A stretch of DNA of 64,000 bases from a bacterium (GCA_017559905.1 JAFYQF010000012.1:186001-250000); one strand, 5' to 3'; shown: positions 28,644 to 49,553, counted from the first letter of the stretch. The notes: generated by a model not told the origin, from the sequence alone. Numbers and translations: made by a program.

Positions 28644-28768
28644 AATTAACCCTATATGTCTGAATACTAAATATATTTCGAACGATAATATAAATCGGCT
28701 TGGGGGTAATAACAAATCAAAATATTATTTTTTGTTAGTTTGTAACGAATTATAAAGTGCAGATGTTA

Positions 28769-33439: not shown

Positions 33440-33442
33440 AAT
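33414..33442 (+). promoter_or_regulatory. Candidate promoter within the 3' end of hsp20
   Basis: CTGAAA (33414-33419), 17 bases, TAGAAT (33437-33442); it would start RNA at about 33449. Confidence 0.35.
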
Positions 33443-33448
33443 AATAGG

Positions 33449-33633
33449 ATTTTGCAGAGTCCTCCTGTGATTAAACGGGCGTGGTGCACGGATGGATGCT
33501 TTAAATAGCTGAAAATATGTGCAAAACAAAGCTGTGAAATCCTAATAACGACTGCTGGTGAGCCACCACGAACTCATCTCAAATTGCAGTCATATTAAAG
33601 GCTTTGCGGGGTAATTCTCACAAAGCCTTTTTT
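33449..33633 (+). ncRNA. Candidate structured RNA between hsp20 and the next gene
   Basis: About 185 bases without an open frame, far less AT-rich than nearby gaps. Domain 1 is closed by TAGGATTT (33445-33452) pairing with AAATCCTA (33537-33544). Domain 2 is closed by GACTGC (33550-33555) and GCAGTC (33586-33591), with an inner TGGTG/CACCA hairpin. CGTGGTG (33480-33486) could pair instead with CACCACG (33564-33570), an alternative fold or pseudoknot. A strong terminator ends it. I could not match it to tmRNA, SRP RNA, RNase P RNA, 6S RNA or a riboswitch that I know. Confidence 0.5.
33597..33633 (+). terminator. Rho-independent terminator
   Basis: AAAGGCTTTG, 14-base loop, CAAAGCCTTTTTT: a 10-base-pair stem with a T run. 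It ends the candidate RNA and hsp20 read-through. Confidence 0.88.
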
Positions 33634-33669
33634 ATAAATTAAAGAGGCTGTCATTTCTGACAACCTCTT
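33630..33669 (-). terminator. Terminator of the glycine-zipper protein gene
   Basis: On the minus strand AAGAGGTTGTCA, GAAA loop, TGACAGCCTCTT, then TAATTT: a 12-base-pair stem with one G-U pair. Confidence 0.75.
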
Positions 33670-33690
33670 GTTTTATGTAATAGACAGATT

Positions 33691-35343
33691 TTATTGTACG
33701 AAGATATACTTGTTAGGGTTTGTTGTTGCTTGGGTTTTTGCGAATGTTTCTGCAGCTTCTTTGGTTGCGAAACCTGTTTGGATAACTGTGTTACCGCATC
33801 CTTCTTCAACTCTGAATGTTTCTGATTTGCCGTGTTTTGTTGAGTTATCATAGTATTCAAGTTTTACATCTTCAGGTTTTGTTTGTTTAACTTCACCTTT
33901 GTGGTAAATATATTGTACTCCGTTAACAGTTTTGTTTTTTGGAAGTTCGATTGTTCCGACTCTCAAACCTTTGTTTTTGCCGAAGATATCGTTACGTAAT
34001 GCCATAATGTCCTTGTGAGTCATTGGTTTACCGTCAGCACGTTTGTACAAACCTTTAGTTACTCGGTATGGGTCATCACCTACAACAACCTTATATGGAA
34101 CTGTAGCGATGCCGTCACCATTACCGTATACATTTAATTGACAAGTGTTGTTGCCATTGTTATTATTACAACCTTGGTTGTCAGTTTGTCCTGCTGGTGG
34201 TTGTCCTGCTGGTGGTGTTGTAACCGGTGGCTCTTGTTTTGCAGGTACTGTGCCTGGAAGTTTGTCGAATTCTTTGGCAGGTGTTTGAGGGTTTTTGTTG
34301 CAGAATTTTGCGATTTCGTATGCTGCAAGAAGTTCTCTGTCGTTAACTTTTTTGCCAGTTAATTCGCCATAACCTAATTTCAAGATAAGAGCTTTGTCTT
34401 CGTTAGTTAGGTTTTCCATTTTCAAGATTTCTCTCATAATTTTTTGGTTATGAGAACCTTTGATTTTTGATTCAAGATTTTTATCACCGTCTTCAACGAT
34501 TGCTTCTGCGCTAATTCCTTTGAAGATATCAGCTTGTCCGTTGTCTTTAACTTTAATAGCTGCTAAAACTGCTGGGATTGCAGCGCCTAACAAACCGATT
34601 AATGCACCTGATGCTGAATCAAGTTTTCCATCGTGGGTGATTGTGTCAACGATTTCTTCAGAACCGTCTATGTGATCACCAATAACGTCACTTTTGAATG
34701 GGATTGAGAACTTGTTGCCAATTAATGCACCAGTTCCTGCGCCAGCACCTAAACAACCTAGAGCCGCAAGCGTTTTGTATAGATTTGTTAGATCTTTTTC
34801 ATATTCATAGCCACCAATTTTAGCAGCGTGTTTCATTGTTGTTTTTCTAACGTTGTAAATATCTGCACCAGCTTGACGTTCGTCAAGGTTTAATTTGTTA
34901 TCAAAACCTGTAATTCTACCGATTTGACGTTTGTAAGCATCACTTGAGAATTTGCCGTTTACTACGAAATCTTCAGGATTATTTTCAATCATTCTTTGGA
35001 TTTCTCTTTCGTATCTTTTTTCTGTTCCGATTAAAACGTGTTCAAATTCAGGATGCTTCTTTTTAGCTTCTTCCATTGATTTTGCATCAATGTGAACCAT
35101 TCTGTTGTCAACTACGGCTGCAGCTTTTTCGTTTTTCAATGCGTTTTTACCAAGTTTTGCTGCTTCTTTGTCGGTTAAGCCTGCAACTTCTTTTTTGTAT
35201 TCGTTAGTTTTGTCTGATTTAAAATTAATTGCAGCTTGTTTGTCTGTTCTCAAGCTTTGAGCTTTTTTTCTGTCAAGTCTTGAGCGTCTGTAAAGACCAT
35301 CTTCGTAACCTGTCGCAGTTAAATTCTTTACTGCATCTGTCAT
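33691..35343 (-). CDS. Unrecognised protein with paired membrane segments and a proline linker
   Basis: 550 residues, start after AAGGGGAAAATT. Residues 1-185 are basic and helical. Two glycine/alanine-rich hydrophobic segments follow at about 190-210 (LGCLGAGAGTGALIG) and 245-270 (SGALIGLLGAAIPAVLAAI), of glycine-zipper type. After a charged helical region comes a Pro/Thr/Gln linker (about 375-400) with an Asn/Gly run. The last ~140 residues look folded: KVVVGDDPYRVTKGLYKRADG and IMALRNDIFGKNKGL resemble a LysM-like or FimV-like unit, and the final ~45 residues (TGFATKEAAETFA) resemble a small SPOR-like fold. No enzyme motif is seen. It is perhaps an envelope-associated protein; the orientation is unknown. 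Confidence 0.6.
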   Translation of the reverse strand: MTDAVKNLTATGYEDGLYRRSRLDRKKAQSLRTDKQAAINFKSDKTNEYKKEVAGLTDKEAAKLGKNALKNEKAAAVVDNRMVHIDAKSMEEAKKKHPEFEHVLIGTEKRYEREIQRMIENNPEDFVVNGKFSSDAYKRQIGRITGFDNKLNLDERQAGADIYNVRKTTMKHAAKIGGYEYEKDLTNLYKTLAALGCLGAGAGTGALIGNKFSIPFKSDVIGDHIDGSEEIVDTITHDGKLDSASGALIGLLGAAIPAVLAAIKVKDNGQADIFKGISAEAIVEDGDKNLESKIKGSHNQKIMREILKMENLTNEDKALILKLGYGELTGKKVNDRELLAAYEIAKFCNKNPQTPAKEFDKLPGTVPAKQEPPVTTPPAGQPPAGQTDNQGCNNNNGNNTCQLNVYGNGDGIATVPYKVVVGDDPYRVTKGLYKRADGKPMTHKDIMALRNDIFGKNKGLRVGTIELPKNKTVNGVQYIYHKGEVKQTKPEDVKLEYYDNSTKHGKSETFRVEEGCGNTVIQTGFATKEAAETFAKTQATTNPNKYIFVQ

Positions 35344-35556
35344 AATTTTCCCCTTTCAAATTTGACCTTGTTAAATAGCCGCAAAGCTATTTTTATCCCC
35401 TGTACTTTTATAAACAATTTTTGTTTGTTAAAATTGCCTTTTATAATAAATTAAAAAAATAATAAACTTTGAAAACTTCGTCAGGAGTTGTGTTTTGCCT
35501 GATTTTAAAAGCGTTAACATTTTGTAATAATTCAAAAATATTCACTTCTTTACTTA

Positions 35557-35586
35557 TTTACATAGAGAAAAAGTATAGTATATAAT
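35557..35586 (+). promoter_or_regulatory. Promoter placed for a leaderless mRNA (oppD-like gene)
   Basis: TTTACA (35557-35562), 18 bases, TATAAT (35581-35586), ending 6 bases before ATG 35593; no ribosome site. Confidence 0.5.
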
Positions 35587-35592
35587 AGCTAT

Positions 35593-36546
35593 ATGAATAT
35601 TTTAGAAGTAAAGAATTTGAATTTGGGGTTTAAGACTGAATGCGGGTTTAGGCAGGCGTTGTTTGACGTTAGCTTTTCTTTAGAACGTGGCAAAACACTT
35701 GCACTAGTGGGAGAAAGCGGGTGTGGAAAATCAATTAGTGCTACAAGCATATTAAGGCTTTTACCAAAAACTGCGCAAATTACAGAAGGTGAAATCTTGT
35801 ATGAAAACAAGAATATATTAGAACTTTCTGAAAAAGATATGTATGGTATTCGTGGTGCAAAAATTGCGCTTATTCCGCAAGATCCTATGACTTCTTTGAA
35901 TCCTTTGTATACGATAGAAAATCAACTTTTAGAAGTAATTAAAATCCATCAAAACTTGCAAGGTGAAGAAGCTAGAAAAAAAGCGCTAGAAGCGTTAGAG
36001 ATGGTTCAAATTCCTTGCGCAAAGGAACGCTTGAAGAGTTATCCGCATGAGTTTTCAGGTGGGATGAAACAGCGTGCAATAATTGCGATGGCGCTTGCTT
36101 GTAATGCTGAAATCTTAATTGCAGATGAGCCGACAACAGCGTTAGATGTTACTATACAGGCGCAGATTATGGAATTGTTAAATGTTATAAAAACTGAAAA
36201 AGGCACTTCTATTCTTTTAATTACGCACGATTTGGCGCTTGTTAGAGAAAATGCTGATGATGTTGCGGTTATGTATGCGGGTAGAATTGTGGAAAAAGCG
36301 CCTGTAGCTGAATTCTTCAAAAATCCAAGGCATCCATATTCTTTGGCGCTATTAGACGCAATCCCTTCTAACAGAGGTGTTGCTCTTGAAACAATTCAAG
36401 GTCAACCGCCTACAATTCACCAAGATATTTCTGGTTGTCGTTTTCATCCAAGATGCAGAATGTGTTTTGAACGTTGTGTTAATGATATTCCTGAATTGCG
36501 TAATGTTGGAGAAAATCATTATTCAGCGTGTTTTTTGGATGACTAA
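35593..36546 (+). CDS. Oligopeptide/dipeptide ABC transporter ATPase, OppD/DppD type
   Basis: 317 residues. Walker A GESGCGKS, Q-loop PQDPMTSLNPLYT, ABC signature FSGGMKQR, Walker B ILIADEPTTALDV and switch His in LLITHD are all intact. The C-terminal oligopeptide-transporter extension is present (CRFHPRCRMCFERC), with four closely spaced cysteines typical of this subfamily. It powers uptake of short peptides (or nickel) through a membrane complex. The permeases, the binding protein and the second ATPase (OppF) are not adjacent, so it is an orphan here. The mRNA appears leaderless. Its stop overlaps ispE by 4 bases, convergently. Confidence 0.85.
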   Translation: MNILEVKNLNLGFKTECGFRQALFDVSFSLERGKTLALVGESGCGKSISATSILRLLPKTAQITEGEILYENKNILELSEKDMYGIRGAKIALIPQDPMTSLNPLYTIENQLLEVIKIHQNLQGEEARKKALEALEMVQIPCAKERLKSYPHEFSGGMKQRAIIAMALACNAEILIADEPTTALDVTIQAQIMELLNVIKTEKGTSILLITHDLALVRENADDVAVMYAGRIVEKAPVAEFFKNPRHPYSLALLDAIPSNRGVALETIQGQPPTIHQDISGCRFHPRCRMCFERCVNDIPELRNVGENHYSACFLDD

Positions 36547-37346
36547 ATTAGTTTCACTCCGTCAGGGATAGATTTTAAGTCGTTTTTAATCCAAAATCCG
36601 TCAGTTTCTTTAAAGTTATCTTTTATTAAAAAATAAGTCGAACCTGAACCTGACATCATAGCGTTAGGGTAGAGTTGTTTTATTTTTTGTAATTCTTTAT
36701 AATCGTCAATTATTGCCCATTCTAAATCGTTTTTATAATTATGGCGATCTGTTTCTGTGATAGATTTCTTGTTTGAAAATTTTGTGTAGGCTTCTTTTGC
36801 GCTTATTCCAAGATTGAGTGGCTTAATTAATGATAGCTGAAATTCTTCAAACTCAAGAGGAGTTAAGATTTCTCCACGTCCAGTGGTTATTTGGCGTCCG
36901 CCTTCTAGACAAAAATTTAAGTCGGAGCCAAGTTTTGCGCAAATGGTGTGAAGTTCTGGTTTAGAAAGTGGGTTACCGAAAATTGCATTCAAGCCTTTTA
37001 ATATCCCTGCAGCGTTGGTGCTTCCGCCAGCTAGTCCTGCTGAAACGGGGATGTTTTTTTCTATATGAACATTGATTTTGTGGGCAGGCATGTTTGATTT
37101 TTCAATAAAAAGCATAATCGCCTTATGCACAAGATTACTTTCGTTATAAGGGATTTCAGGGCTTGTGCCTGAAAGTTTTATTTCAAACTCGTCAGAGGGT
37201 TCTATAGTAAGTGTAAGGTAATCATAAAGACTAATTGTCTGCATAATGCTTTCAATGTTATGAAAACCGTCAGGTCTTTTCCCTGTGACTTTCAAGTTAA
37301 GATTGATTTTCGCAGGACATTGAATTATTAATTGTTTGCTACCCAT
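36543..37346 (-). CDS. ispE: 4-diphosphocytidyl-2-C-methyl-D-erythritol kinase
   Basis: 267 residues, GHMP kinase fold. CPAKINLNLKVTGKRPDGFHNI opens it (residues 10-31), the ATP-binding glycine loop is PVSAGLAGGSTNAAG, and the last motif is AMMSGSGSTYFL. It phosphorylates the 2-hydroxyl of CDP-methylerythritol in the MEP route to isoprenoids, needed for undecaprenyl phosphate and quinones. It overlaps the end of rsmA by 8 bases, so the two are co-translated, an arrangement common in bacteria. Confidence 0.92.
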   Translation of the reverse strand: MGSKQLIIQCPAKINLNLKVTGKRPDGFHNIESIMQTISLYDYLTLTIEPSDEFEIKLSGTSPEIPYNESNLVHKAIMLFIEKSNMPAHKINVHIEKNIPVSAGLAGGSTNAAGILKGLNAIFGNPLSKPELHTICAKLGSDLNFCLEGGRQITTGRGEILTPLEFEEFQLSLIKPLNLGISAKEAYTKFSNKKSITETDRHNYKNDLEWAIIDDYKELQKIKQLYPNAMMSGSGSTYFLIKDNFKETDGFWIKNDLKSIPDGVKLI

Positions 37347-38178
37347 TCTTTAACAATTCCTCTGAAAGTTTGCCAAAGGTTTCAATTGAAAGCTTTTCGC
37401 CTCTTGTGTTTTCGTCAATTCCTAATGCAGAAAGAGATTTTGTGATGTTTTCTTTTGAAAAACCACCTTGAAGTAAGCAGTTTTTAATGTTTTTTCTGCG
37501 TTGAGAAAATGCTGCTTTCACGGTTTTTCTAAAATGTGTATAATCTGTTAAATCTAGTCTAGGTTTTTCTAGCACATCAAGTTTTACAAGTGCTGAATTA
37601 ACTTTTGGTGCTGGGTAAAAAGATTTTCTTCCAACAAGCCTGAAAATTTCGACATCCGCCCAAAACTGTGAAAGAATTGTTAATAGTCCATATTGTTTTG
37701 ATGGAGAATTCTCATCGGCAGCCATTCTTCTAGCGACTTCTTCCTGAACCATAAGGATAATATCTTTTATTAGGTTGCGGTTTTTGTTGTTCAAATCATC
37801 CACTTCTCCAAGCAAGTGCGCAATAATTGGGCTTGTAATGTAGTATGGAATATTGGCAACAATTTTAACCTTTTCGTCGACTAATTGAGAAAAGTCTGTT
37901 TTCAAAATATCTTGGTGAATGATTTCCAAATTAGGAGCATCAAGTTTTTTTAGTTCTCTAATTGCTTCTTCATCAAGCTCGATTGCAATAACTTTTTTGG
38001 CATGCTTGACCAATTGTTCCGTTACAAACCCGACTCCAGGTCCAATTTCGATTACTATATCGTCAGATGTAATTCCTGCTTCAGCAATGATAGCGTCAAT
38101 TACATCGGCGTTAATTAGAAAGTTTTGACCGAGTCTTTTTTTAGTTTTGAAAAATTTTGCGCGTTCGAAGTAGTTCAT
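37339..38178 (-). CDS. rsmA: 16S rRNA dimethyladenosine methyltransferase
   Basis: 279 residues. KKRLGQNFLINADVID at the start, SAM-binding VIEIGPGVGFVTEQL, acidic VIAIELDEEA, and the catalytic NIPYYITSPII (N-I-P-Y), with FSQRRKNIKN near the end, identify KsgA/RsmA. It dimethylates two adjacent adenosines in the last helix of 16S rRNA during 30S maturation. The upstream stretch to the gshA start (95 bases) is the divergent promoter region. It leads the rsmA-ispE pair. Confidence 0.95.
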   Translation of the reverse strand: MNYFERAKFFKTKKRLGQNFLINADVIDAIIAEAGITSDDIVIEIGPGVGFVTEQLVKHAKKVIAIELDEEAIRELKKLDAPNLEIIHQDILKTDFSQLVDEKVKIVANIPYYITSPIIAHLLGEVDDLNNKNRNLIKDIILMVQEEVARRMAADENSPSKQYGLLTILSQFWADVEIFRLVGRKSFYPAPKVNSALVKLDVLEKPRLDLTDYTHFRKTVKAAFSQRRKNIKNCLLQGGFSKENITKSLSALGIDENTRGEKLSIETFGKLSEELLKNG

Positions 38179-38273
38179 GTTACCTATTATAATAGCACAG
38201 ATAGGTTAATGTCTGCAAACTTCATGTTTGATATTTTAACAATGGTTATAGTATAGTATCAACGGAGGTTAAT

Positions 38274-39599
38274 GTGAGTACATTGCAGGCTAAAGAAAAA
38301 TTAAATCGTGGGGAGATTTTGAAACTTTTTACTTGTGGTTTTAAGCCAAAGGCAGAACATAAAATTGGTATGGAGTTTGAACGCTTACCAATTTCTGTTG
38401 TAACTAACAATACGGTTTCTTACGATGGTGATTTTGGAGTTTGTAATTTATTAAGGGCATACGCAAAGTCTGAAAATTGGGACTATATAACGGATGATTA
38501 TAATATTATAGGATTGAAACAAGGTCATGATACTATTACGCTTGAGCCTGGTAGTCAGCTTGAGTTAAGTATCAAACCTAAAAATACAATTCATGATTTA
38601 AAGTCAAAAGTTGATGAGCTAAATTCTCAAATGAAACCTATTTTAGACAAGTTTAATATTAAACTTTTAGAATACGGGGTATCTCCTCTTTCTACCCACA
38701 AAAATATTTTATTAATTCCAAAACGTCGTTATAGAATTATGGCACAATATTTGTGGGGAATACTTTCTGACGTTATGATGAGAGAAACTGCGGGTATTCA
38801 GTGTTGTATAGACTTTGAGAATGAAGAAGATGCAATGCGTAAATTTTTGATTGCAAACAAGCTTGTACCTTTTATGACGGCAATGTTCGCTAATTCACCG
38901 ATTAGGGGTGGGGTTGAAACTGGTTATAAAAGCTTTAGGGCTTTGAGTTGGTTAAATACCGATAATGACAGATGTGGCTTTTGTGGGGAAATGATTGAAG
39001 ATTTTTCGTTCGATAAATATATTGATGAAGTTTTGAAATGTCCTATGATTTTTATAAACAGAGAGGATACTCCAATTGCTCTCCGTGGTAAGTTTTCTTT
39101 TGAAGAATTTATGAAAAATGGTTATCGTGATTTTGACGCTGATATTGAAGATTTTAAGCTCCATGCAAATTTATATTTCCCAGAAGTTAGAATGCGCAAT
39201 TTTATCGAAATAAGAAATCAGGATTGTGTTGGCAAGGATATGATTTATTCAGTTTTGGCGATTTACAAAGGAATTTTGTATAATAGTTCTGCAATGGATG
39301 AGGTTGAGGAGTTGTTGTCAGAATTTTGTTATAATGATTTTTCTGAACTTCGTTATAATGTTCCAAAAAGTGCTTTAAATGCAAAGATTAAAAGGACTTC
39401 GGTTTTGGATATTGCAAAGGAACTTCTTTATATTGCCGAAAAATCATTGATAGAAATGGATACAAATGAAGAAGTCTTTCTTGATCCGATTAAGGAATTA
39501 ATTGAAGATGGGATTTGTCCTGCAGATATTCTTATAAAAAATTGGAATGGGATTTGGAACAAAGACATAACAAAATTGGTTAAATATTTAAGTTCATGA
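38274..39599 (+). CDS. gshA: Glutamate-cysteine ligase, plant/cyanobacterial type
   Basis: 441 residues from GTG 38274, five bases after GGAGG (the ATG overlapping it is followed by TGA). It matches the GCS2 family: GMEFERLPI, IIGLKQGHDTITLEPGSQLELS, MMRETAGIQCCIDF, FANSPIRGG and YFPEVRMRNFIEIRNQD. It joins glutamate and cysteine to gamma-glutamylcysteine with ATP, in the cytoplasm. No gshB is nearby, so the end product may be gamma-glutamylcysteine or glutathione made with a distant gene. A related enzyme type (EgtA) starts ergothioneine synthesis, but nothing else of that route is here. A -10-like TATAGT lies about 25 bases before GTG. Confidence 0.82.
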   Translation: MSTLQAKEKLNRGEILKLFTCGFKPKAEHKIGMEFERLPISVVTNNTVSYDGDFGVCNLLRAYAKSENWDYITDDYNIIGLKQGHDTITLEPGSQLELSIKPKNTIHDLKSKVDELNSQMKPILDKFNIKLLEYGVSPLSTHKNILLIPKRRYRIMAQYLWGILSDVMMRETAGIQCCIDFENEEDAMRKFLIANKLVPFMTAMFANSPIRGGVETGYKSFRALSWLNTDNDRCGFCGEMIEDFSFDKYIDEVLKCPMIFINREDTPIALRGKFSFEEFMKNGYRDFDADIEDFKLHANLYFPEVRMRNFIEIRNQDCVGKDMIYSVLAIYKGILYNSSAMDEVEELLSEFCYNDFSELRYNVPKSALNAKIKRTSVLDIAKELLYIAEKSLIEMDTNEEVFLDPIKELIEDGICPADILIKNWNGIWNKDITKLVKYLSS

Positions 39600-39601
39600 A
39601 G

Positions 39602-39628
39602 AAAAAAGGCGATTTTTTGAAATCGCCT
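39602..39628 (-). terminator. Terminator of the GGDEF-type gene
   Basis: On the minus strand GGCGATTTC, A-rich loop, AAATCGCCTTTTTTC: a 9-base-pair stem with a T run. On the plus strand it lacks the T run. Confidence 0.8.
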
Positions 39629-39675
39629 GATAACCAGATTTACACTATGTAAGTGTTCAGAAAGGAAGTCTTTTA

Positions 39676-40551
39676 CTATTCTCCCAAGTTGATTTGAGAG
39701 AATTGAACAATTTTATTTTTGCCACGTTTTTTTGCATTGTACAAAGCGTGTTCTGCGTAGCGGATAATTGTGTTTACGTCTTCGTCTGTATCTTCCAAGC
39801 AAGGGTAAGTTGAAATACCACCTGAAATAGTAATTGGGTGTCTTTCTTCTTCTCCTGCAGGAATGAATTCCATTTTTTCAATATCACGTCTGAATCTTTC
39901 GCCGAAAAGGAACGCATTTTCTTCAGAGGTGTTTGGTAAGATTAGAAGAAATTCTTCGTCACCGTAACGAGTAAGAATGTCTTCTTTTCTGATTAATTGT
40001 TTTAATTTGTCTGCGATTGAGCGAAGAAGTACGTCACCCCAGTCGTAGCCGTAAATGTCGTTAACAACTTTGAAAAAGTCAAGGTCGAATAATAGGCAAG
40101 ATAGTTTTGTGCCATAACGTTTTGCTCTTGAAATTTCTTGTTCAAGACGTTCGTGCAAATATCTTCTGTTGTGAAGTCCTGTTAGTTCGTCTGTTGTTGT
40201 TACTTGCATTAATTTTTCACGTAAATCTCTGATTTTTAATAAAGCTTTTGTTCTGATTAAAAGTTCATCTGTATCAACTGGAGTTTTAATCATATCGTAT
40301 GTGTAAGCTCTTACTGTTGTACCTTTGAAGGTCTCTCCTACAAATAGTACTGGAGCTTTGAATTTTGTAACCATTAAAACATCTTTGATGTTTGGTACAT
40401 CTTCAATTACTAACAACGCAGGATTAAGAGTTTCGTAATCTCTTAATTTTTCAGCGTCTTCAATTCTTACATTAACATCCTCAAGTCCTGCTAAAACGTC
40501 AGCAAGTGATGATGAATTTTGACTTGTATAAACGATTATATTTCTCATCTT
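39676..40551 (-). CDS. GGDEF-domain protein with altered signature and N-terminal receiver-like domain
   Basis: 291 residues from ATG 40549-40551, with AGGATAGG before it; the longer frame to 40626 has no ribosome site. Residues 1-115 fold like a response-regulator receiver (LLVIEDVPNIKDVL, APVLFVGE, then MIKTPVDTDELLIR), but I see no clear phospho-acceptor Asp in the usual setting. The GGDEF domain begins at DELTGLHNRRYLHERLEQE and has LLFDLDFFKVVNDIYGYDWGD. The signature reads RYGDEEF (residues 195-201), that is GDEEF in place of GGDEF. Cyclic di-GMP synthesis is the family role; the change may reduce activity or make it a sensor. It is divergent from the RelA/SpoT-domain gene. Confidence 0.8.
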   Translation of the reverse strand, partial: KMRNIIVYTSQNSSSLADVLAGLEDVNVRIEDAEKLRDYETLNPALLVIEDVPNIKDVLMVTKFKAPVLFVGETFKGTTVRAYTYDMIKTPVDTDELLIRTKALLKIRDLREKLMQVTTTDELTGLHNRRYLHERLEQEISRAKRYGTKLSCLLFDLDFFKVVNDIYGYDWGDVLLRSIADKLKQLIRKEDILTRYGDEEFLLILPNTSEENAFLFGERFRRDIEKMEFIPAGEEERHPITISGGISTYPCLEDTDEDVNTIIRYAEHALYNAKKRGKNKIVQFSQINLGE

Positions 40552-40652
40552 CCTATCCTTACAATATCTCACTCTTACTGAAAATATTAGCATGTAGCGG
40601 ATAACTGCGCAATTTGTAACAATCACTTAACAATATTAAAGTTAATGCTGAA

Positions 40653-43600
40653 ATGTCCGTAAATGTATTTGTTATGTCAAAGGTTAGTAATATAAATTTT
40701 GAAATAAGGAAGTTTTTATCTGAAAACAAGGATTTAAAATTTCTTTCAAAAAGTGAAATTCTCTCTATTATGGTTGCCAGAGGGAAGATTTCTCATATTC
40801 AAGCAAGTGAATATCTTAAAAATTCGACTTTTGATACAGGATTTGTAAATGGGATTGAGGTTTTGCCGCAATGGGGTGGGCAAAAAGAGTCTTTTGATGT
40901 GGCGTTGGGTGTGTTGAGCGGAATTCTTCTTTCGGCTCAATCTAAACTTGTGCAACAAGATAAAACTGATGGGCCTATCGCTAAAACAATTAATTATTTT
41001 AAAGAAAGTTTTGACACTGACAATAAAAAATCGAATACTGTTAAATTAATCAAGCAGACGCAAAAAGATTTAGCAGAGCTTGAAATGGCGTCTTCTCCTG
41101 AAGTTTTTAAGGCAAAATTCAAAGAATTACGTGGAGTAGAATTCTCTCAAAAAAATATTGCTGATTGCGCTGAAAAGTCTGAAATTATGACAAAAGCAGA
41201 AATTATTAAATCGGCTTGTGATAGTTTGAAACAGACTTTGTTGTTATCAACCGCAGATAGTGCAAGTAATGCAACTGGAATTGATGCGAATAGAGCTGTA
41301 ATTTCTACATTAAAAGCTTTGGGTAAAAAAGATAAAGCTTCTATTGATGAAGTTTTAAAAGATATCGAGTTGAAAAATAAAGATAACGAAGTATTTAAAA
41401 AATACGGTGGCAATTTAAGAGTTAATAAAGATAAAAATGGAGAATTGCAGATTTATAGGACTGCAAAAAATGGTTACGCAGAGCCTGTAACGCTTAAGCA
41501 TTTGCAAATTATTTCGCAAGAGTTGGAATTGCGTGTAAATAGGGCTTATGCAATGGCTTTAGGCGCAGAAGTTTCAGAGAATGCAACTTCTAAAGATTTA
41601 GAAAAATTGGCTAACCAAAGATATGATGATATCAAAAAAGATTATTATGAATCTTTTGAAAAAGCTTATGGCAAAGATAATCTTTCAGAATCTGCTGATA
41701 ATTATATATTATCTCAAGAAAAAAATACGGCTTACGTTGAGCTTGGTTTAGATTTTATTTCTATGGCTTCGATGTTTGTGGGTAGCGGAATGGTGTTGAA
41801 GGGCGCTAGGTTACTAGGTGCTGGCACAAAAACTGTAGGCGCGCTTACAAATGCGACTTCTGCTATGGCAAAAGCAACTCCTATTCTTGCAACAACTCAA
41901 ATTGCAAGACCTGTGAGTTTAATCGAAAATTTGGGCGCAGAAGAACCAGATTGGGAAAGTTATGGAATAAGCGTAAAAGAAGGCGCTATGTGGGTGACTT
42001 TAGGTATGGTATCAGGTGCGATTGGAAACAATGCCAGATTATTTTTGGGTCAAAAAGGGCTTGCTCATATAGCAAAAAATACAGGTAAATCTATAGATAG
42101 TCTTATAAAAATGTATAAATCAGGACATAAATTGCCTAATAATTTGCGAACTTGTTTGAGTTTAATTGAAAATTCGGCAAAAATAAGTGGTACATCTGCA
42201 GAATTTGTTGCGGATATTATGATGACTTATTGTATTCAAAAAGGCATCAGAGGAAATGATTTGACAGTGATGGATTATCTGATGTCAGCGAATGGTGCAA
42301 TGATGGGTACAGTTATGCACAAAACTTTTGCAAATATTTCTGATATTGAAAAAGTTAAAGTTATCCAAAAAGCTTTGCTTGAACAAAATCCAAAAATGTC
42401 AAAAGATGAACTTGAAAAAGCTTCAAAGCAACTTTTAGAAATCCATAGACTTGCAGAAGAAAAGCGTAATCCAAGTGTTGCAAAAACTGCAACTAAAAAT
42501 GATTTGAATAAATTTGATGATAATGTGGCTCAATTGCGCAAAAATATTGAAGAAGGACATTTGAGAGGACTTGAAGTTGTCAAGAACTTGTCAGTGCAAG
42601 AACAAAAAGCTTTGATTGAAGGTCTAAAAGCAGGTGCGGATATTGATGACTTTTTGATGACTGCTGTGGGAGAAAAACCTATGTGTTTTGTTGATTGCAA
42701 CAAAGATTTGGATATCGAAAAGTTAAGAATTGCAGGGTTTGAAGCTATAAAATTTAATCATCCGTATGATACTTTAGACTCAATGTTATTGATAAATAAA
42801 AAAATGGTCAAAAATTTAATTGAAGAGCATACTGAATTTTATCAAAAAAGACTTGCTTTGTCTGATGATGCGTCTGCAGATGATATTTACAGAGCATTAA
42901 TAAAAGATTTCTCAAGAGATGATATTCCATTCAAACGTGACCTTTTGGGTGTGACATTGGGTTATGGAAAAGAAAATGCGATGATTTTTGCTTTAGAGGA
43001 TTTTATTCCTGATTTCAATTTTAGTATGCGAAGTGATTTGCGAACTTATAAAAAGGCGCTAAAGACTGCATTGTATAGCGAAAATTCTCCGTTCAAAGAT
43101 TTTGATGATGCGTTTAAGGCAGGACTTGCAGAAAAGATTGATGGTATAAAAAATATTCAAAACCCAAATGTACCAGGGTATCATTCTGTAGATTATATGA
43201 AAAATATTTATGAGCAGACCGAAAGAGTTGACCACTTGCGTTCTGCGACCAAAAAGCTGGAAACAGTTAATGATGATTCAATTATTATTACAAGAACTGT
43301 TAAAGGTGCAGATGGAAAAGATAAATTAGAATTGAATGCTGTCGGAGATAAAAAGGCAAAAGAAACAGCAGAGCGAATTCATAATTTTGCGAAAAAGATA
43401 GAAAAATCAATCGTAAATATAATGCAAGACGCTGGGCTTGGTATTGATAAAAAAGATATGGCGCACAGGGCAAAAAGCGTAAAAAGTTTGTATGACAAAA
43501 TAAGGAGCGCTATTTGTGATGATGGTATGACTTTTAGCGAGGCGGTGAAATCAATTCGTGACCAAGTCGGTTGTCGTACAGAAATGGCGGATTTCAATTA

Positions 43601-44321
43601 TAAGGATTATCCTGAACTTGTTGAATTATACAAAAAAGACCCTAAAGCTGCGATTAAAAAAGCTGCAGAAATGCAATCTCAAATTTATTTAGAAAGAGTA
43701 AAAGCAGTAATTTCTGCACAAGGTTTAGACCCGAATAACAAAGTTAGTGCAATGCGACTTTCAAACTATATGGGGCTAGACGGTGTTCCTTATTTTTCAA
43801 AGGAACAAGTGCAAGAGCTTGTAGATTTGGGTGCGAAATATGGAATTTCGCTTCACGTAAAAACTGCTGATCCAAAAATTAGAGATTCAGGCTATACCGC
43901 TTTGCAGATGAATTTCTATACAAAAGATGGCGATGTTTTCGAGTGGCAATTGAGAGGTTCTAAAGTAAATAAGTTTGCAGAATTTGAACACGTTCCGTAT
44001 GACTTAAGAACTGGAAAAGATGTTACAGGTGGCAAAGCAATTTTGAAAAATCTTTATGCGCCGATTGAAGATGCCGTTATGAATATGAAAAAAGATAAAT
44101 TTGATGCTTACAATAGATATTTGACTGCGCATTATGAACATTTACGTTTGTTAGAGCTTGGATTTGAGTCGAAAGCTCCTATAATGGAAGATTTTGGTAT
44201 TACAGATGCTAGACTTCGTGTTGAAAGTTTAGAAATTCTCCACGATTTAGCTGTAAAATTAAAAGATGGCAAAATAAAAGAATCAGATGCTTTAATACAG
44301 TATACAAATTTGATAAAATAA
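40653..44321 (+). CDS. Large protein with C-terminal RelA/SpoT-type synthetase domain
   Basis: 1222 residues from ATG 40653 (another ATG lies at 40674; neither has a good ribosome site). Residues 1-360 are helical. A hydrophobic Gly/Ala-rich region spans about 370-430. Residues 600-900 are helical and unknown. Residues ~930-1130 match the RelA/SpoT nucleotidyltransferase fold: HRAKSVKSLYDKI (Arg939, Lys941, Ser945, Lys949), SIRDQVGCR (Asp970), DSGYTALQM (Tyr1081), VFEWQLRG (Glu1097, Gln1099, Arg1101) and AEFEHVPYD (His1113). No hydrolase (HD), TGS or ACT domain is seen. It should transfer pyrophosphate from ATP to a nucleotide or, as in toxic small synthetases, to another acceptor. The architecture resembles a polymorphic toxin more than a stringent-response enzyme. 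Confidence 0.75.
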   Translation: MSVNVFVMSKVSNINFEIRKFLSENKDLKFLSKSEILSIMVARGKISHIQASEYLKNSTFDTGFVNGIEVLPQWGGQKESFDVALGVLSGILLSAQSKLVQQDKTDGPIAKTINYFKESFDTDNKKSNTVKLIKQTQKDLAELEMASSPEVFKAKFKELRGVEFSQKNIADCAEKSEIMTKAEIIKSACDSLKQTLLLSTADSASNATGIDANRAVISTLKALGKKDKASIDEVLKDIELKNKDNEVFKKYGGNLRVNKDKNGELQIYRTAKNGYAEPVTLKHLQIISQELELRVNRAYAMALGAEVSENATSKDLEKLANQRYDDIKKDYYESFEKAYGKDNLSESADNYILSQEKNTAYVELGLDFISMASMFVGSGMVLKGARLLGAGTKTVGALTNATSAMAKATPILATTQIARPVSLIENLGAEEPDWESYGISVKEGAMWVTLGMVSGAIGNNARLFLGQKGLAHIAKNTGKSIDSLIKMYKSGHKLPNNLRTCLSLIENSAKISGTSAEFVADIMMTYCIQKGIRGNDLTVMDYLMSANGAMMGTVMHKTFANISDIEKVKVIQKALLEQNPKMSKDELEKASKQLLEIHRLAEEKRNPSVAKTATKNDLNKFDDNVAQLRKNIEEGHLRGLEVVKNLSVQEQKALIEGLKAGADIDDFLMTAVGEKPMCFVDCNKDLDIEKLRIAGFEAIKFNHPYDTLDSMLLINKKMVKNLIEEHTEFYQKRLALSDDASADDIYRALIKDFSRDDIPFKRDLLGVTLGYGKENAMIFALEDFIPDFNFSMRSDLRTYKKALKTALYSENSPFKDFDDAFKAGLAEKIDGIKNIQNPNVPGYHSVDYMKNIYEQTERVDHLRSATKKLETVNDDSIIITRTVKGADGKDKLELNAVGDKKAKETAERIHNFAKKIEKSIVNIMQDAGLGIDKKDMAHRAKSVKSLYDKIRSAICDDGMTFSEAVKSIRDQVGCRTEMADFNYKDYPELVELYKKDPKAAIKKAAEMQSQIYLERVKAVISAQGLDPNNKVSAMRLSNYMGLDGVPYFSKEQVQELVDLGAKYGISLHVKTADPKIRDSGYTALQMNFYTKDGDVFEWQLRGSKVNKFAEFEHVPYDLRTGKDVTGGKAILKNLYAPIEDAVMNMKKDKFDAYNRYLTAHYEHLRLLELGFESKAPIMEDFGITDARLRVESLEILHDLAVKLKDGKIKESDALIQYTNLIK

Positions 44322-44345
44322 AATTATATTAAAAATGAGGTAAAA

Positions 44346-44777
44346 ATGGACGCAATTAATCCTGCAAAATTAAATAGAGTCACACATAGAGGCGCAAAAA
44401 TTAAAACGGAAACATTTGAGAATAAGTTATCAAAAATGGTTGATAATTTGCGTGGTGAAGCTGAACGTCGAGTTTGTGAGTATGGTTCGTTTGCGCCAGT
44501 AAAGGCTAATGTTTTGGCAAAAGACAAATCTGAATTATTGCAAGAGGTTGTGTTGCAGGTTGTTCCATTGCCAAAATCCTTGAAAGAAAAAACACCGAAT
44601 TACGAAAGACTTCGTTATGTAGAACTTATCGGTTATGGTAATAAAGGTCAAGTAGAATCTGTTGTGCTTGCACGAGGTACAAAGGATGAAGTTTTGCAGA
44701 AATTAAACGATATTAATTTCCCATCAAAAGTGCAAGAAGAAGTCGAAGAATTCAGAAGAAGTTTCTTGGAAGATTAA
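44346..44777 (+). CDS. Small partner of the RelA/SpoT-domain protein, unknown family
   Basis: 143 residues, 24 bases after the RelA/SpoT-domain gene, behind AAAAATGAGGTAAAA (GAGG site), so very likely co-expressed. It is soluble and charged: a basic N-terminal third (KLNRVTHRGAKIKTETF), a central beta-rich part (LLQEVVLQVVPLP, LRYVELIGYGNKGQVESVVLARG) and a helical acidic end (VQEEVEEFRRSFLED). I recognise no family. Its size and position would suit an antitoxin, immunity protein or regulator of the upstream enzyme, but nothing in its sequence proves that. Confidence 0.6.
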   Translation: MDAINPAKLNRVTHRGAKIKTETFENKLSKMVDNLRGEAERRVCEYGSFAPVKANVLAKDKSELLQEVVLQVVPLPKSLKEKTPNYERLRYVELIGYGNKGQVESVVLARGTKDEVLQKLNDINFPSKVQEEVEEFRRSFLED

Positions 44778-44817
44778 TGCTTGAAAAATATTTGCAATAA
44801 TGTCTTAAAAATTCTAT

Positions 44818-44846
44818 TTGCTCATAAGTTTTTGTCGTGATAGAAT
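44818..44846 (+). promoter_or_regulatory. Promoter placed for a leaderless mRNA (rimI)
   Basis: TTGCTC (44818-44823), 17 bases, TAGAAT (44841-44846) with extended TGA before it, ending 6 bases before ATG 44853. Confidence 0.55.
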
Positions 44847-44852
44847 TTTTTT

Positions 44853-45389
44853 ATGGCAAATAGAGTTTTGAAAATTGTTCCTATGCAAAAAGAGCATTTG
44901 GATGAGGTTATAAAAGTTGAGGAAAAGGCTTATGGTGAACACCATTGGTCTAAAGAATCATTTTTTAATGAGTTAAATAACCAATTAGCAAAGTATTTTT
45001 GTGCCTTTAACGAACAGGGAGAACTTGTTGGATATTGTGGTTGTTGGCAAATCCTAGAAGAGGCTCATATTACAAATATTGCGGTATCACCTGATTTTCG
45101 CCGTAAAAATGTTGGTGAAGCGTTGCTTGTTGCAATTATTAAATCTTGTTACAAAGAAATGGTCAAATATTTGACTTTGGAAGTCAGGGTTTCTAATGAG
45201 CCAGCGATAAAGTTGTATGAAAAATATGGACTAAAGTCTTTGGGTATAAGGAAAGGTTATTATCAGGATAATAATGAAGATGCCTTAATAATGTGGACAG
45301 AAAACATTTTTTACGATAAATTTAAGAGTGTGTACGAACAAAATCTTGAGAAATTAAACGATAAAGTAGGAATTATTTACCAAATATGA
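44853..45389 (+). CDS. rimI: Ribosomal-protein-alanine N-acetyltransferase (GNAT)
   Basis: 178 residues. GNAT fold: ITNIAVSPDFRRKNVGEALL has the acetyl-CoA loop R/Q-x-x-G-x-G/A in the form RRKNVGEAL, and LTLEVRVSNEPAIKLYEKYGLKSLGIRKGYY is the typical RimI end (quoted in two parts by the family). RimI acetylates the N-terminal alanine of ribosomal protein S18 and may act on other proteins. It is about 25 residues longer at the C terminus than E. coli RimI. It overlaps the next gene by 4 bases (ATGA), so translation is coupled. Confidence 0.82.
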   Translation: MANRVLKIVPMQKEHLDEVIKVEEKAYGEHHWSKESFFNELNNQLAKYFCAFNEQGELVGYCGCWQILEEAHITNIAVSPDFRRKNVGEALLVAIIKSCYKEMVKYLTLEVRVSNEPAIKLYEKYGLKSLGIRKGYYQDNNEDALIMWTENIFYDKFKSVYEQNLEKLNDKVGIIYQI

Positions 45390-46153
45390 TGGACGATACC
45401 GAATTAACTCCACAATCAGAACCAGAGCCTCAAGAGCAACTTGAACAGGTTGAACAATCAGAACAAGTTGAACCTCCTCTTAATCCTGAAAAAAAGAAAA
45501 CAGATAAGAGCCAATTGCCAAGAAGAATAAAAACTCAACGTTCTGGGTTGAAATTTAGCATAAGTAGTTTTATGTTGATAATTTTTTGTTCATTTTTGCT
45601 TGTTGTTTCAACTTTTTTGCAACTTGATATTACGCATTTTGGTATCCCTGCGAAGTTGTTTTCAGGTGAAGATTTGAAATTGCAAGATTACGTTCAAACG
45701 TTTACGCTCATCCCTCAAGTTCCTGCGGTTATGTTTATAACAGGGTTATTGGGTAGGAAATTTGGTTTAGCAAGTGTAATTATTTATTTAATAACTGGAT
45801 TGTTTATATTACCTGTATTTGCTTTAGGAGGCGGTTGGCAATATATGGGTGAATATGGATTTGGTTATTTGTTAGCATATATTCCTGCGGTATTTTTGAC
45901 TGGTACAATTTTGAAAGACGGATTTACTTATAAAAATTCAATAAAAGCCGTAATGGTTGGGGTTTTATTAATCCATTTAATCGGTATTTTGTATATGCTA
46001 GTTGTTGCGACGTTCAGGCATGAGGGTTGGGGTTTTATATCAGGATGGATTGTTGCACAAAGTGGTGTGAAAATCCTTTATGATTTTATATTTAGCTTAC
46101 TTTCGGTTCTTGTTGCAAAATATGCAAGACTTGTACTTTGGTTGTATATGTAA
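45386..46153 (+). CDS. BioY-like transporter substrate-binding membrane protein
   Basis: 255 residues. The first ~50 are a Glu/Gln/Pro-rich acidic stretch then a basic one, unusual for the family. Six hydrophobic segments follow, with the BioY pattern GRKFGLASVIIYLITGLF, LPVFALGGGWQYM and GFGYLLAYIPAVFLTG. BioY is the S component of energy-coupling factor (ECF) transporters and binds biotin in the membrane. The ECF ATPases and transmembrane protein are not adjacent. It starts at ATG 45386 within the rimI stop (or at 45389). Biotin is the best guess for the ligand; another small vitamin is possible. Confidence 0.72.
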   Translation: MMDDTELTPQSEPEPQEQLEQVEQSEQVEPPLNPEKKKTDKSQLPRRIKTQRSGLKFSISSFMLIIFCSFLLVVSTFLQLDITHFGIPAKLFSGEDLKLQDYVQTFTLIPQVPAVMFITGLLGRKFGLASVIIYLITGLFILPVFALGGGWQYMGEYGFGYLLAYIPAVFLTGTILKDGFTYKNSIKAVMVGVLLIHLIGILYMLVVATFRHEGWGFISGWIVAQSGVKILYDFIFSLLSVLVAKYARLVLWLYM

Positions 46154-46163
46154 GATTTAGTTG

Positions 46164-48440
46164 TTATAGAATATCAAGTGGATCTACATCAATTGCAAGT
46201 TTGATGTCTTTTGGAACTGTAATTTTGTTCAAGAAACTTGATATAAATTGGTGACCTTTTTCGCCCATTTTATTTTTAATTATTAGTTGGAAACGGTACA
46301 TCCCGTTAATTCTTTCGATTACACAAGGTGTAGGACCAAGAACTTCTAGCCTTTCTGAAGTCCCGAATTTTTCAATCATAGTGCATAGACGAAGTGCAAT
46401 CTCTTGTGCTGATTTTTCGGCACGGAAATTGTTTGCAGAACTTAAAATAAGTCGAATTATTTGGCTGAAAGGTGGATAGTCAAATTCTTCTCTTGCGACA
46501 ATTTCTGTTGCGTAAAATTCATCGTAATTTTGTGATTTTGCACTTGCTAAAGCGTAGTAATCAGGGTTGTAAGTTTGGAAATAAACTTTGCCTGCGAATT
46601 CGCCTCTGCCTGCACGCCCTGCGACTTGGGTAAGAAGTTGAAATCCTCTTTCTGAAGCTCTAAAGTCAGGCAAGTTGAAGCTTGCGTCGGCCGAGATTAC
46701 GCCAACTAATGTTACGTTTGGATTGTCTAATCCTTTTGCAATCATTTGAGTGCCGACAAGAATGTCGATTTTTCCGCTTTGGAATTTCTCTAAAAGTCTT
46801 ACGTGTTCCCCTTTTCTTACTAAAATGTCGCTGTCGATGCGTTCTATGTTGTTTTCTGGGAAAAGGTCTTTTATGTATTGTTCGATTTTTTGAGTTCCAG
46901 TTCCGCTATTTTTAAGTGCATCAGATCCGCATTCTGGACAAAAATCAGGGAAGTATTGTGCGTGGTTGCAGTAATGGCATTTTAGCATTTGGTCTTTAGA
47001 GTGCCAAATCATAGGGATTGCACAGTTTGGGCATTCTACAACGTGCCCGCAGGCTTTGCATTGAGTGAATGTCGAAAATCCACGTCTGTTTATTAATAAA
47101 ATTACTTGTTGTTTTTGTTCTAAAGTTTCTTTTATTGCGTTTTGTAATGGTATTGAAATTACGTTTTTGTAAGCTGCACGACCGTATTCTTGCATGTTGA
47201 TTACTGTTACTGGAGGAACTTTTGCATCATTAAAACGCTTTTTCATCTCAAATAAGTTGTTTGTATTTACTGCTCTGTAGTATGTTGAAATATCTGGAGT
47301 TGCAGAGCCTAGTAATAGTGGACAATTATGGAATTCTGCAAGCTTGTTTGCAACGACTTTTGCGTCATATCTTGGCGCAGGAGAGGTTTGTTTGTAAGCG
47401 CTTTCGTGTTCTTCGTCTATTATAATTAATCCAATATTTTTTAATGGTGCAAACACGGCAGAGCGAGCACCTGCCAAAATTTTGATTTCATTTTTGTATA
47501 ATTTTTGCCAAACGTCGTATCTTTCACCATCAGAAATACTACTGTGCCAGATTGCAACGTCTTCTGTCCCGAATTTTTTCGCAAGTCGTTTTGTTAATTG
47601 AGAAGCGAGAGCGATTTCAGGAGCGAGGAAAAGTACATTTTTCCCAGCCTTAATGCAGTCTTCAATTAGTTTGAAGTAAACTTCGGTTTTGCCTGAAGCT
47701 GTAACCCCATGCAGAAGAATGGTTTTGTTTACGTTGTCTGAAATTTTATCTTTTATTCCTTGATAAACTTTTTCTTGATCTCCTGAAAGTTCAAAAAGAG
47801 GTTCTTTTTCAGAAATCTTGAGTACATCTAGAGGGTTCCTGTAAATATTTTCTTCGGTAAGTTTTAGGCATCCTAAAGTTTCTAATTTTTTTAATGTTGT
47901 GCGAGTTGTTTTTGCCATTTTTTCTAGCATAATGGCGGGCATTTTTCCTGATGATTTTAGAGTTTCAAGCACTTCGATTTGACGTTTGGTTGCACCGTCA
48001 AAAGTTACGAATTCAACTGCAAGTTCTGTTTTGGATGCTTTTTCAATTAATTTCATTGGAATTGCAGCGTTTAATACTGTTACTAAATCACAGCAATAAT
48101 AGTTTGCAACCCATTCTAAAAGTTTAAGATAATCTATTGAGAAAAGAGGTGTTTCGTCAAGGATTTTGCTAATTTTTTTTACTTTAAAATCTCCAGGGAG
48201 ATAGTCTGAAAATCCTACACAAAAAGCGTTTATAAGTCCTTGTCTGCCAAAAGGTACAAGGATAGCTTGTCCGATTTGAAGTTTATTTTTCATTTCCTCA
48301 GGAATTGCGTAGCTAAAAGTTTTTACGCCCAATCCTGTAATGTTTACTAAAGCGAGCGCATATCTTGGTGATGAGTCTTTTGTTGAAAATGAAGACTCAT
48401 CTTCGAAAAGATTTAGTTTAGTTTGAATTTCATTTTTCAT
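46164..48440 (-). CDS. priA: Primosomal protein N' (replication restart helicase)
   Basis: 758 residues. The N-terminal DNA-binding domain has VPFGRQGLINAF; Walker A is HGVTASGKTEV, motif II IIDEEHESAYK, motif III LLGSATPDI. The zinc-binding insert shows eight cysteines in CKACGHVVECPNC and CHYCNHAQYFPDFCPEC. Helicase motifs V/VI include VGTQMIAKGLD and QVAGRAGRG. It reloads DnaB at collapsed forks. It reads after the PC4-like gene with 31 bases between; GAGGTC precedes its ATG. Confidence 0.95.
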   Translation of the reverse strand: MKNEIQTKLNLFEDESSFSTKDSSPRYALALVNITGLGVKTFSYAIPEEMKNKLQIGQAILVPFGRQGLINAFCVGFSDYLPGDFKVKKISKILDETPLFSIDYLKLLEWVANYYCCDLVTVLNAAIPMKLIEKASKTELAVEFVTFDGATKRQIEVLETLKSSGKMPAIMLEKMAKTTRTTLKKLETLGCLKLTEENIYRNPLDVLKISEKEPLFELSGDQEKVYQGIKDKISDNVNKTILLHGVTASGKTEVYFKLIEDCIKAGKNVLFLAPEIALASQLTKRLAKKFGTEDVAIWHSSISDGERYDVWQKLYKNEIKILAGARSAVFAPLKNIGLIIIDEEHESAYKQTSPAPRYDAKVVANKLAEFHNCPLLLGSATPDISTYYRAVNTNNLFEMKKRFNDAKVPPVTVINMQEYGRAAYKNVISIPLQNAIKETLEQKQQVILLINRRGFSTFTQCKACGHVVECPNCAIPMIWHSKDQMLKCHYCNHAQYFPDFCPECGSDALKNSGTGTQKIEQYIKDLFPENNIERIDSDILVRKGEHVRLLEKFQSGKIDILVGTQMIAKGLDNPNVTLVGVISADASFNLPDFRASERGFQLLTQVAGRAGRGEFAGKVYFQTYNPDYYALASAKSQNYDEFYATEIVAREEFDYPPFSQIIRLILSSANNFRAEKSAQEIALRLCTMIEKFGTSERLEVLGPTPCVIERINGMYRFQLIIKNKMGEKGHQFISSFLNKITVPKDIKLAIDVDPLDIL

Positions 48441-48471
48441 TCAGACCTCATCACCTAGTTTTGCGCAAAAA

Positions 48472-48702
48472 TTATTCTGCCATAAATTCTTTTCTTGCTT
48501 CTTGAACAGCTTCTTCTAATAAATCAAGTTGTTCTGGAGAGAACGTAACTCCTTTTTTTGTTGGAATCCAAGTTGCGCCTTCATCAGTTGTGTAGAATAT
48601 TCTCATATTCAAGTAGCTTTTGCCTTTATATTCACTTACAGAAATCTGTAATTGTTCAGTGTCGCTTCTTTCGATTGTAGCTAAAATTTTTGCATCTGCC
48701 AT
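48472..48702 (-). CDS. PC4-like ssDNA-binding transcriptional coactivator domain protein
   Basis: 76 residues, one domain. ISVSEYKGKSYLNMRIFYTTDEG followed by WIPTKKGVTFSPEQLDLLEEAV is the PC4/p15 fold: curved beta-sheet strands with Lys/Arg/Trp, then an amphipathic helix (motif quoted in parts). Bacterial members bind single-stranded DNA or other nucleic acids as dimers. It leads into priA, 31 bases on, which fits a role near exposed single strands. The ribosome site is AAGGAGAG. Confidence 0.85.
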   Translation of the reverse strand: MADAKILATIERSDTEQLQISVSEYKGKSYLNMRIFYTTDEGATWIPTKKGVTFSPEQLDLLEEAVQEARKEFMAE

Positions 48703-48803
48703 TTTTAATCTCTCCTTATAAACTGTTACCCCATTATTTTATCAGAAAAATTGTTTTTATGGTAATGTAAAGGAAACGAAAAGTTAAATAAGGAGAAAAG
48801 TTT

Positions 48804-49553
48804 ATGATAAAAGTTGCGGTATGTGGTGCATTGGGTAAAATGGGACAAGAAGTTGTAGCTGCTGTTGAAGCATCTGATGATATGCAACTTGTTGCAAAGA
48901 TTGATATTGCGTCTTCTGAAATGTATAGAACGATAGAAGAAGCCGCAAGAGTTGAAGAAATTGATGTTTTAGTTGATTTTACGCAACCAAAATCAATTTA
49001 CGAAAATGCTTTATACTGTTTGAACAATGGTATCAAAATGGTAATTGGTACAACAGGTTTGACTGATGAACAGATTGATAATTTAAAAAAACTTTCTGCT
49101 GAAAAAAATACTGGATGTTTAATTGCACCTAATTTTTCAACAGGTGCAGTATTGATGATGATGTTTGCAAAACAAGCTGCAAAATATTTTGATAATGCCG
49201 AAATTATTGAACTTCACCACAACCAAAAGAAAGACGCTCCATCAGGAACTGCGATTAAGACAGCACAACTTATGGCAGAAGCAAATTCAGATATGGCAAA
49301 AGGTAATTGTGCAGAAGTTGAAACAATTGAGGGTTCTCGTGGTGGAACATCATATGCTAACATTCATATTCATTCTGTTAGAATGCCTGGTTACATTGCA
49401 TCTCAAGAAGTTATTTTTGGTGCATCAGGTCAAATCTTGAAAGTAAGACACGATTCAATGGATAGAAAATGCTATATGCAAGGTGTTTTACTTGCCGTAA
49501 GACATACATTCAAAGAAAATGATTTTGTATATGGATTAGATAATATTTTGTAA
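48804..49553 (+). CDS. dapB: 4-hydroxy-tetrahydrodipicolinate reductase
   Basis: 249 residues. NAD(P)-binding GALGKMGQEV at residue 8, VDFTQPKSIYENA, VIGTTGLT, APNFSTGAVLMM, and the catalytic/substrate motif ELHHNQKKDAPSGTA with the His-His and Lys. It makes tetrahydrodipicolinate in lysine and diaminopimelate synthesis, hence peptidoglycan. AAGGAG precedes ATG. It is divergent from the PC4-priA operon across 101 bases and has no dap neighbours. Confidence 0.94.
   Translation: MIKVAVCGALGKMGQEVVAAVEASDDMQLVAKIDIASSEMYRTIEEAARVEEIDVLVDFTQPKSIYENALYCLNNGIKMVIGTTGLTDEQIDNLKKLSAEKNTGCLIAPNFSTGAVLMMMFAKQAAKYFDNAEIIELHHNQKKDAPSGTAIKTAQLMAEANSDMAKGNCAEVETIEGSRGGTSYANIHIHSVRMPGYIASQEVIFGASGQILKVRHDSMDRKCYMQGVLLAVRHTFKENDFVYGLDNIL

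Follow-up and report, generated by a model that had tools for sequence, protein, structure and literature searches.

What is the role of a RelA/SpoT-type synthetase domain that sits at the end of a 1222-residue protein, directly ahead of a small gene, in a genome that encodes an ordinary 744-residue Rel as a separate gene elsewhere? This arrangement occupies positions 40,653–44,777 of the window, a stretch of 64,000 nucleotides (GCA_017559905.1 JAFYQF010000012.1:186001-250000). The genome is 1.84 Mb in size and 99.96% complete, and its closest named relatives are metagenome-assembled genomes (MAGs) of Candidatus Gastranaerophilales / Melainabacteria. Gastranaerophilales is an order of non-photosynthetic cyanobacteria, and the host is a gut bacterium. 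From sequence comparisons and structure models we propose, with a probability of roughly 60%, that the pair of genes constitutes an effector/immunity (toxin/antitoxin-like) module, in which the synthetase-type domain (R) would arrest growth and the small partner protein would neutralise it.

The C-terminal domain R

The two genes and the sequence elements of R are as follows.

40653–44321, plus strand: large mosaic protein gene, open reading frame (ORF) of 1222 residues; probable true start at 40674 (Met8)
44346–44777, plus strand: partner gene, ORF of 143 residues; no relative of its family found in Pfam or the PDB
44337–44341, plus strand: Shine-Dalgarno-like GAGGT ahead of the partner gene, its own ribosome site
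43293–44318, plus strand: RelA/SpoT-type synthetase domain R, residues 881–1222 (profile, motifs and predicted fold)
43467–43499, plus strand: ATP-site motif RxKSxxSxxxK, R939–K949 (alignment)
43560–43577, plus strand: DxxGxR motif, D970–R975 (alignment)
43764–43808, plus strand: family-specific insert motif NYxGxxxxxYFSxxQ, residues 1038–1052 (alignment)
43887–43907, plus strand: G-loop SGYTALQ, residues 1079–1085 (alignments)
43941–44003, plus strand: ExQxRG...EHxxYD, E1097–D1117 (alignments)

Both ORFs lie on the same strand, separated by 24 bases, as the original prediction had it. Since relatives of the large protein within the genus start at the equivalent of Met8, its gene probably begins at 40674, giving a protein of 1215 residues.

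As a single sequence, R scores 17.9–21.5 bits against Pfam RelA_SpoT (PF04607), below the cut-off of 27, and routine annotation would therefore miss it. A PDB search with the single sequence likewise gave no matches, and a profile of its relatives was needed. This profile finds YwaC as the best PDB entry (E = 1.1e-8), followed by other RelP, RelQ and Rel entries; the sequence relationship to alarmone synthetases is well above chance. A structure model computed from 35 sequences has a mean pLDDT of 95 and a pTM of 0.89, and Foldseek matches it to CapRel, SaEAS, RelP and RelQ with a probability of 1.00. CapRel (7ztb) ranks first and SaEAS (8vx3) second, with Tas1 (6ox6) at rank 28 (E = 0.047); the TM-scores of these matches are modest and do not exceed 0.58 when normalised by target length. 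The high-confidence model and the profile match together support a RelA/SpoT fold for the C terminus.

The synthetase residues named in the original prediction are all there, and the full set (R939/K941/S945/K949, D970/G973/R975, Y1081, E1097/Q1099/R1101 and H1113) is conserved across 47 aligned domains. Within this alignment R939, K941, K949, D970, R975, Y1081, E1097, Q1099 and H1113 are nearly invariant, and a larger alignment, of 110 domains, shows the same near-invariance of the catalytic residues for clades with a partner. The absence of HD, TGS and ACT domains holds as well: a domain search of the 1222-residue protein found none. Sequence and model thus confirm residues ~881–1222 as a RelA/SpoT-type pyrophosphotransferase domain with an intact predicted active site.

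R shares its core with known synthetases and adds to it the NYxG...YFSxxQ insert and extra C-terminal helices, which hold conserved Tyr and Arg residues. At the syn3 motif, which follows the G-loop and reads SxH in (p)ppGpp synthetases and GxN in Apk2 (PMC12226406), R has TALQ. Motif swaps in Apk2 fail to convert its nucleotide specificity (PMC12226406). Because TALQ fits neither motif and such motifs alone do not decide specificity (PMC12226406), the R sequence does not reveal the product. The TALQ sequence in place of the usual S-x-H (PMC12226406), together with the score below the Pfam cut-off, would also fit a degenerate domain without catalysis that serves in structure or binding; however, the near-invariance of the catalytic residues in both alignments (in the larger one, for clades with a partner) makes this reading extremely improbable.

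The partner gene tracks R

A contig scan with the full-length 1222-residue protein gave no matches, whereas a scan of named-genome contigs with the R-domain profile gave 67 loci. Three of these end at or near a contig edge, and 64 can be assessed for the partner. As judged with a partner profile, the next gene after the R gene, on the same strand, is a member of the partner family in 63 of the 64, mostly at a distance of 5–130 nucleotides and always beyond the end of the ORF, even where R lies far inside the protein. The 64th locus (L194, on the same contig as L078) carries an unrecognised ORF of 148 residues in the partner position.

In our first set of relatives the partner is present at 36 of 46 R genes. 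The ten cases without it comprise four members of a side clade (L097, L102 and both copies in L103); L101, from a small clade with a different downstream ORF; L081, at a contig end; L085, a degenerate copy; L078, with an unrecognised 148-residue ORF in place; L096, where only short fragments follow; and L080, a true absence. Most of these exceptions thus belong to a side clade with an altered active site, to contig ends or to degenerate copies, and R is almost never found without the partner, as expected if the two genes belong together. Conversely, all 95 phylum genomes with a partner match also have a match to R.

No partner was found at loci that carry the N-terminal region of the large protein without R (L104–L111). 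Since the partner is missing there and follows R wherever R lies, it tracks the enzyme domain and not the rest of the protein; assignment of the partner to the N-terminal region was rejected on the same grounds. In one genome (G012), the ancestral GGDEF-rimI locus has lost the big gene and kept an orphan partner (L095). Retention of orphan genes is known for immunity genes, and by analogy the G012 locus shows an orphan-immunity pattern.

A solitary R clade (L102, L103, L209–L220; proteins of 317–405 residues) is partnerless and has H1113 replaced by Asp and R1101 by Met, Leu or Ile. A link between partner loss and the altered active site is suggestive only, because one evolutionary event may explain both. 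At L103:3591-5589, two solitary R-type genes of 317 and 344 residues stand in tandem, partnerless and with altered active-site residues. In another clade of small R proteins (317–325 residues; L221–L224, L101), a conserved ORF of 120–134 residues lies downstream; homology of these ORFs to the partner is not demonstrable (hhalign probability 1.8), and they are possibly independent or very diverged partners.

The partner protein

The model of the partner (pLDDT 87.5) shows a disordered N-terminal tail followed by a helix, four strands and two helices. Searches of Pfam gave no family match, and comparison with PDB folds gave no confident match (best E = 0.15), a failure that is no proof of a new fold. 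Known antitoxin domains (pZFD, Tis1-like or Panacea) were likewise not detected, Tis1 is not among the partner's best 50 fold matches, and no chaperone fold was matched. The median isoelectric point (pI) of the family is 7.9. Nothing in these results marks the partner as one of the Tis1, pZFD or Panacea antitoxins (PMC11782079), or as a type III chaperone of the usual acidic sort.

A short N-terminal motif like I-N-F-x-G or T-V-S-F-x-G is found in partners, in solitary R proteins (L103, L209–L220) and in unrelated ORFs (e.g., L106:3527, L070:5044). Within the first 44 residues it occurs in 14 of 519 ORFs, a partner-enriched set, against 1.6 expected from internal windows, and it is possibly a lineage-specific sorting signal.

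Mosaic architecture of the large proteins

Ahead of R, the large protein has the following parts.

40653–42497, plus strand: N-terminal region (N), residues ~1–615, common to other large Gastranaerophilales proteins without R (L104–L108); no Pfam match
41718–42062, plus strand: Gly/Ala-rich, mildly hydrophobic segment, residues ~356–470 (hydropathy)
42495–43274, plus strand: inserted region M, residues ~615–874, not in genus orthologues

The hydrophobic Gly/Ala-rich segment noted originally does exist, but it is weak: the highest 19-residue Kyte-Doolittle mean is 1.6, at residue 364, and there is no clear transmembrane helix. Regions N and R are common to most members of the genus. Region M has no Pfam identity, and its relatives in other genomes are separate proteins of ~330–400 residues (e.g., L077:4228-5403).

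The N-terminal ~600 residues recur on giant proteins without R (L104–L108), some of which have an HD domain. In other relatives R is preceded by different N-termini of several types, or stands nearly alone, and it may be C-terminal, central or almost the entire protein, in proteins of ~320–4355 residues. R ends within 60 residues of the C-terminus in 28 of the 63 paired named loci and more than 300 residues before the end in 27 (maximum, 1661 residues).

Among the large mosaic proteins, L071, L073, L104 and L108 have HD domain matches and a common C-terminal end like EFLxFxxxNLPII, and L070 has a calpain-like match; these HD and calpain-like parts are other modules of the same mosaic pool. The window encodes a further giant uncharacterised protein of 2182 residues (22167–28715, minus strand), which has no significant Pfam match.

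Distribution and inheritance

R is present in 135 of 386 phylum genomes, 134 of them in Gastranaerophilales; the single match outside the order is weak (E = 7e-5). No R was found in viral contigs, phages or plasmids, and we dropped mobile spread of the module for this reason. Searches with PADLOC and PHROGs gave no relevant match.

Within the genus, the pair occupies one syntenic site beside a GGDEF gene and, where the contig permits, rimI/bioY. The module has diverged more quickly than the genes beside it: identity averages 61% for the partner, 61% for N and 73% for R, as compared to 95% for the GGDEF gene and 83% for rimI.

Several observations weigh against an effector/immunity module. Within the genus the module occupies a syntenic chromosomal site, and copies on phages, plasmids or viral contigs were not found; it therefore behaves like a resident gene. 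Pairwise distances correlate with r = 0.77 between R and partner and r = 0.91 between N and partner, such that coevolution of R and partner is not singled out (Mantel test). Classic toxin domains lie at the C-terminus, as R does in the window protein, yet many members carry R internally. No gene for a type VI secretion system (T6SS) sheath (VipB) or a VirB4-type type IV secretion system (T4SS) was found in 59 relatives, and no fusion of R to the partner is present in the loci searched.

Vertical inheritance at one genus locus, the chromosomal position with no copies in phage, plasmid or viral collections, and the retention of every catalytic residue would all suit a resident, regulated alarmone synthetase of the producer, with the 143-residue protein as a signal-responsive regulatory subunit (activator or inhibitor). 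Such an enzyme equally predicts the coupling of partner and R. On the other hand, the genome already has a canonical Rel, the proteins reach 4355 residues with shuffled N- and C-terminal parts and diverge fast, and the ancestral locus in G012 retains the partner alone. We therefore regard a resident synthetase as unlikely, if a serious candidate, and favor an effector with its neutraliser.

Export genes and the chaperone question

No known trafficking domain was found in the large protein. Delivery by a T6SS or a VirB4-type T4SS is unsupported, as no such genes were found in the 59 relatives. An FHIPEP (FlhA-type) export gate is present order-wide, with FliE, FliF and FliH neighbours in the window's genome, and no match to flagellin was found in the genus. 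The FHIPEP gene stands with FliH, FliF and FliE genes on contig C6 of G000 (33000–49000; L233:6913-13010) and in relatives. Nearly all relatives have an FHIPEP type scoring ~720 bits, and flagellated ones carry an extra type of ~870 bits. Two loci of the window's genome (L234:7396-8871, L235:6864-8588) encode proteins of 491 and 574 residues with only C-terminal FHIPEP regions, and the N-terminus of one of them resembles a 348-residue protein encoded in the FliF/FlhA-type cluster. The FHIPEP, FliE, FliF and FliH genes may represent a non-flagellar type III apparatus; that this set exports the large R proteins is speculation. Partial flagellar gene sets in Gastranaerophilales have been noted before (PMC5877343).

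These genes bear on whether the partner might act as a chaperone or adaptor in secretion of the large protein, with R as effector cargo. Type III effectors have class I chaperones as small partners, and such chaperones bind the N-terminal region. The adjacency of a small gene to a large effector-like gene, the order-wide gate with FliE, FliF and FliH in a genus lacking flagellin matches, and the weak match of R to the model of XopAD, a type III effector, are consistent with this role. However, the partner follows R and not the N-terminal region, its median pI of 7.9 is not acidic, no chaperone fold was matched, and it also adjoins stand-alone R proteins (e.g., L089), all of which renders a chaperone quite improbable. 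In a broader version of the effector/immunity reading, a flagellum-derived type III apparatus retained in members that lack flagellin would export giant alarmone-synthetase effectors throughout the order, and the partner of each would belong to an undescribed neutraliser family that acts differently from Tis1 or pZFD antitoxins; we consider this version rather improbable as a whole.

Relation to known systems

RelA/SpoT toxin domains have been described in polymorphic toxins, including those of type VII secretion systems (T7SS), and in XopAD-type effectors (Zhang et al. 2012, PMC3482391); MuF Apk2 pairs with immunity proteins (PMC12226406). A 2025 survey found hundreds of exported alarmone synthetases, and its main text does not mention cyanobacteria, Melainabacteria or Gastranaerophilales (Ahmad et al., PMC12691689). 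Polymorphic toxins were found to be strikingly rare in cyanobacteria in the 2012 survey (PMC3482391). Since RelA/SpoT toxin domains are established on large secreted proteins (T7SS, XopAD, MuF, Tas1), the kind is already known.

In XopAD/SKWP effectors, as in the protein described here, a RelA/SpoT synthetase domain forms part of a very large protein with multiple domains (PMC3482391, PMC12691689), and the XopAD model matches R weakly over ~80 residues (E = 1e-4 to 4e-4, 17.8–19.7 bits; cut-off 2000). In contrast to them, the window protein has no SKWP repeats in these searches, belongs to another phylum, has one R per protein and is accompanied by a conserved dedicated partner. Tas1/Apk1 (T6SS, immunity protein Tis1) and Apk2 (MuF) share the enzyme domain on a larger protein and the small adjacent gene (PMC12226406); unlike Tas1/Tis1, the partner has no Tis1 fold match among the best 50, the relatives have no T6SS sheath gene, and R is often internal. 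As in polymorphic toxins, the same domain stands behind different N-terminal parts and has a small gene downstream.

RelP and RelQ are the best sequence-profile relatives of R, and they and the exported SaEAS, its second fold match, have the same ATP-site and ExQxR motifs, but R differs in a longer stretch from motif 2 to the G-loop, TALQ instead of SxH, the extra C-terminal helices and a near-obligate partner. Canonical long Rel, RelA and SpoT differ from the window protein in their HD hydrolase, TGS and ACT/RRM domains, none of which were found in it. The toxSAS enzymes (CapRel, FaRel2, PhRel, FaRel; PMC11782079) have the same fold and an adjacent small gene, whereas most R proteins (range, ~320–4355 residues) greatly exceed a short stand-alone toxin in size, and the partner gave no match to a pZFD, Tis1-like or Panacea domain. 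Of the toxin-like synthetase with a partner that had been predicted, the RelA/SpoT fold and the partner coupling stand; because R is often internal and no known toxSAS antitoxin resembles the partner, a new large member of toxSAS can at most be inferred. Within the reach of our searches, novelty lies in the R family, its lineage-wide scale, its often internal placement and the family of the partner.

Proposed function and implications

In the module that we propose, the large gene and the partner gene would be co-transcribed, and the 143-residue protein would bind R inside the producer and hold it inactive. The large protein would be delivered out of the cell; its N-terminal and linker parts, shuffled among large proteins, would serve delivery or extra functions. 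Using ATP as donor, R would pyrophosphorylate a nucleotide or tRNA and would halt growth wherever the enzyme acts. The near-constant pairing of R with the partner suggests a weapon or growth switch that comes with its neutraliser built in.

If this is true, a poorly understood gut lineage would gain a large and clearly delimited family of alarmone-synthetase effectors that has so far escaped annotation, together with the family of their neutralisers. The 342-residue domain and the 143-residue partner make a ready test pair for what may be a new way of controlling pyrophosphotransferases, and the solitary clade, with its two changed active-site residues, would provide a natural control linking partner dependence to activity.

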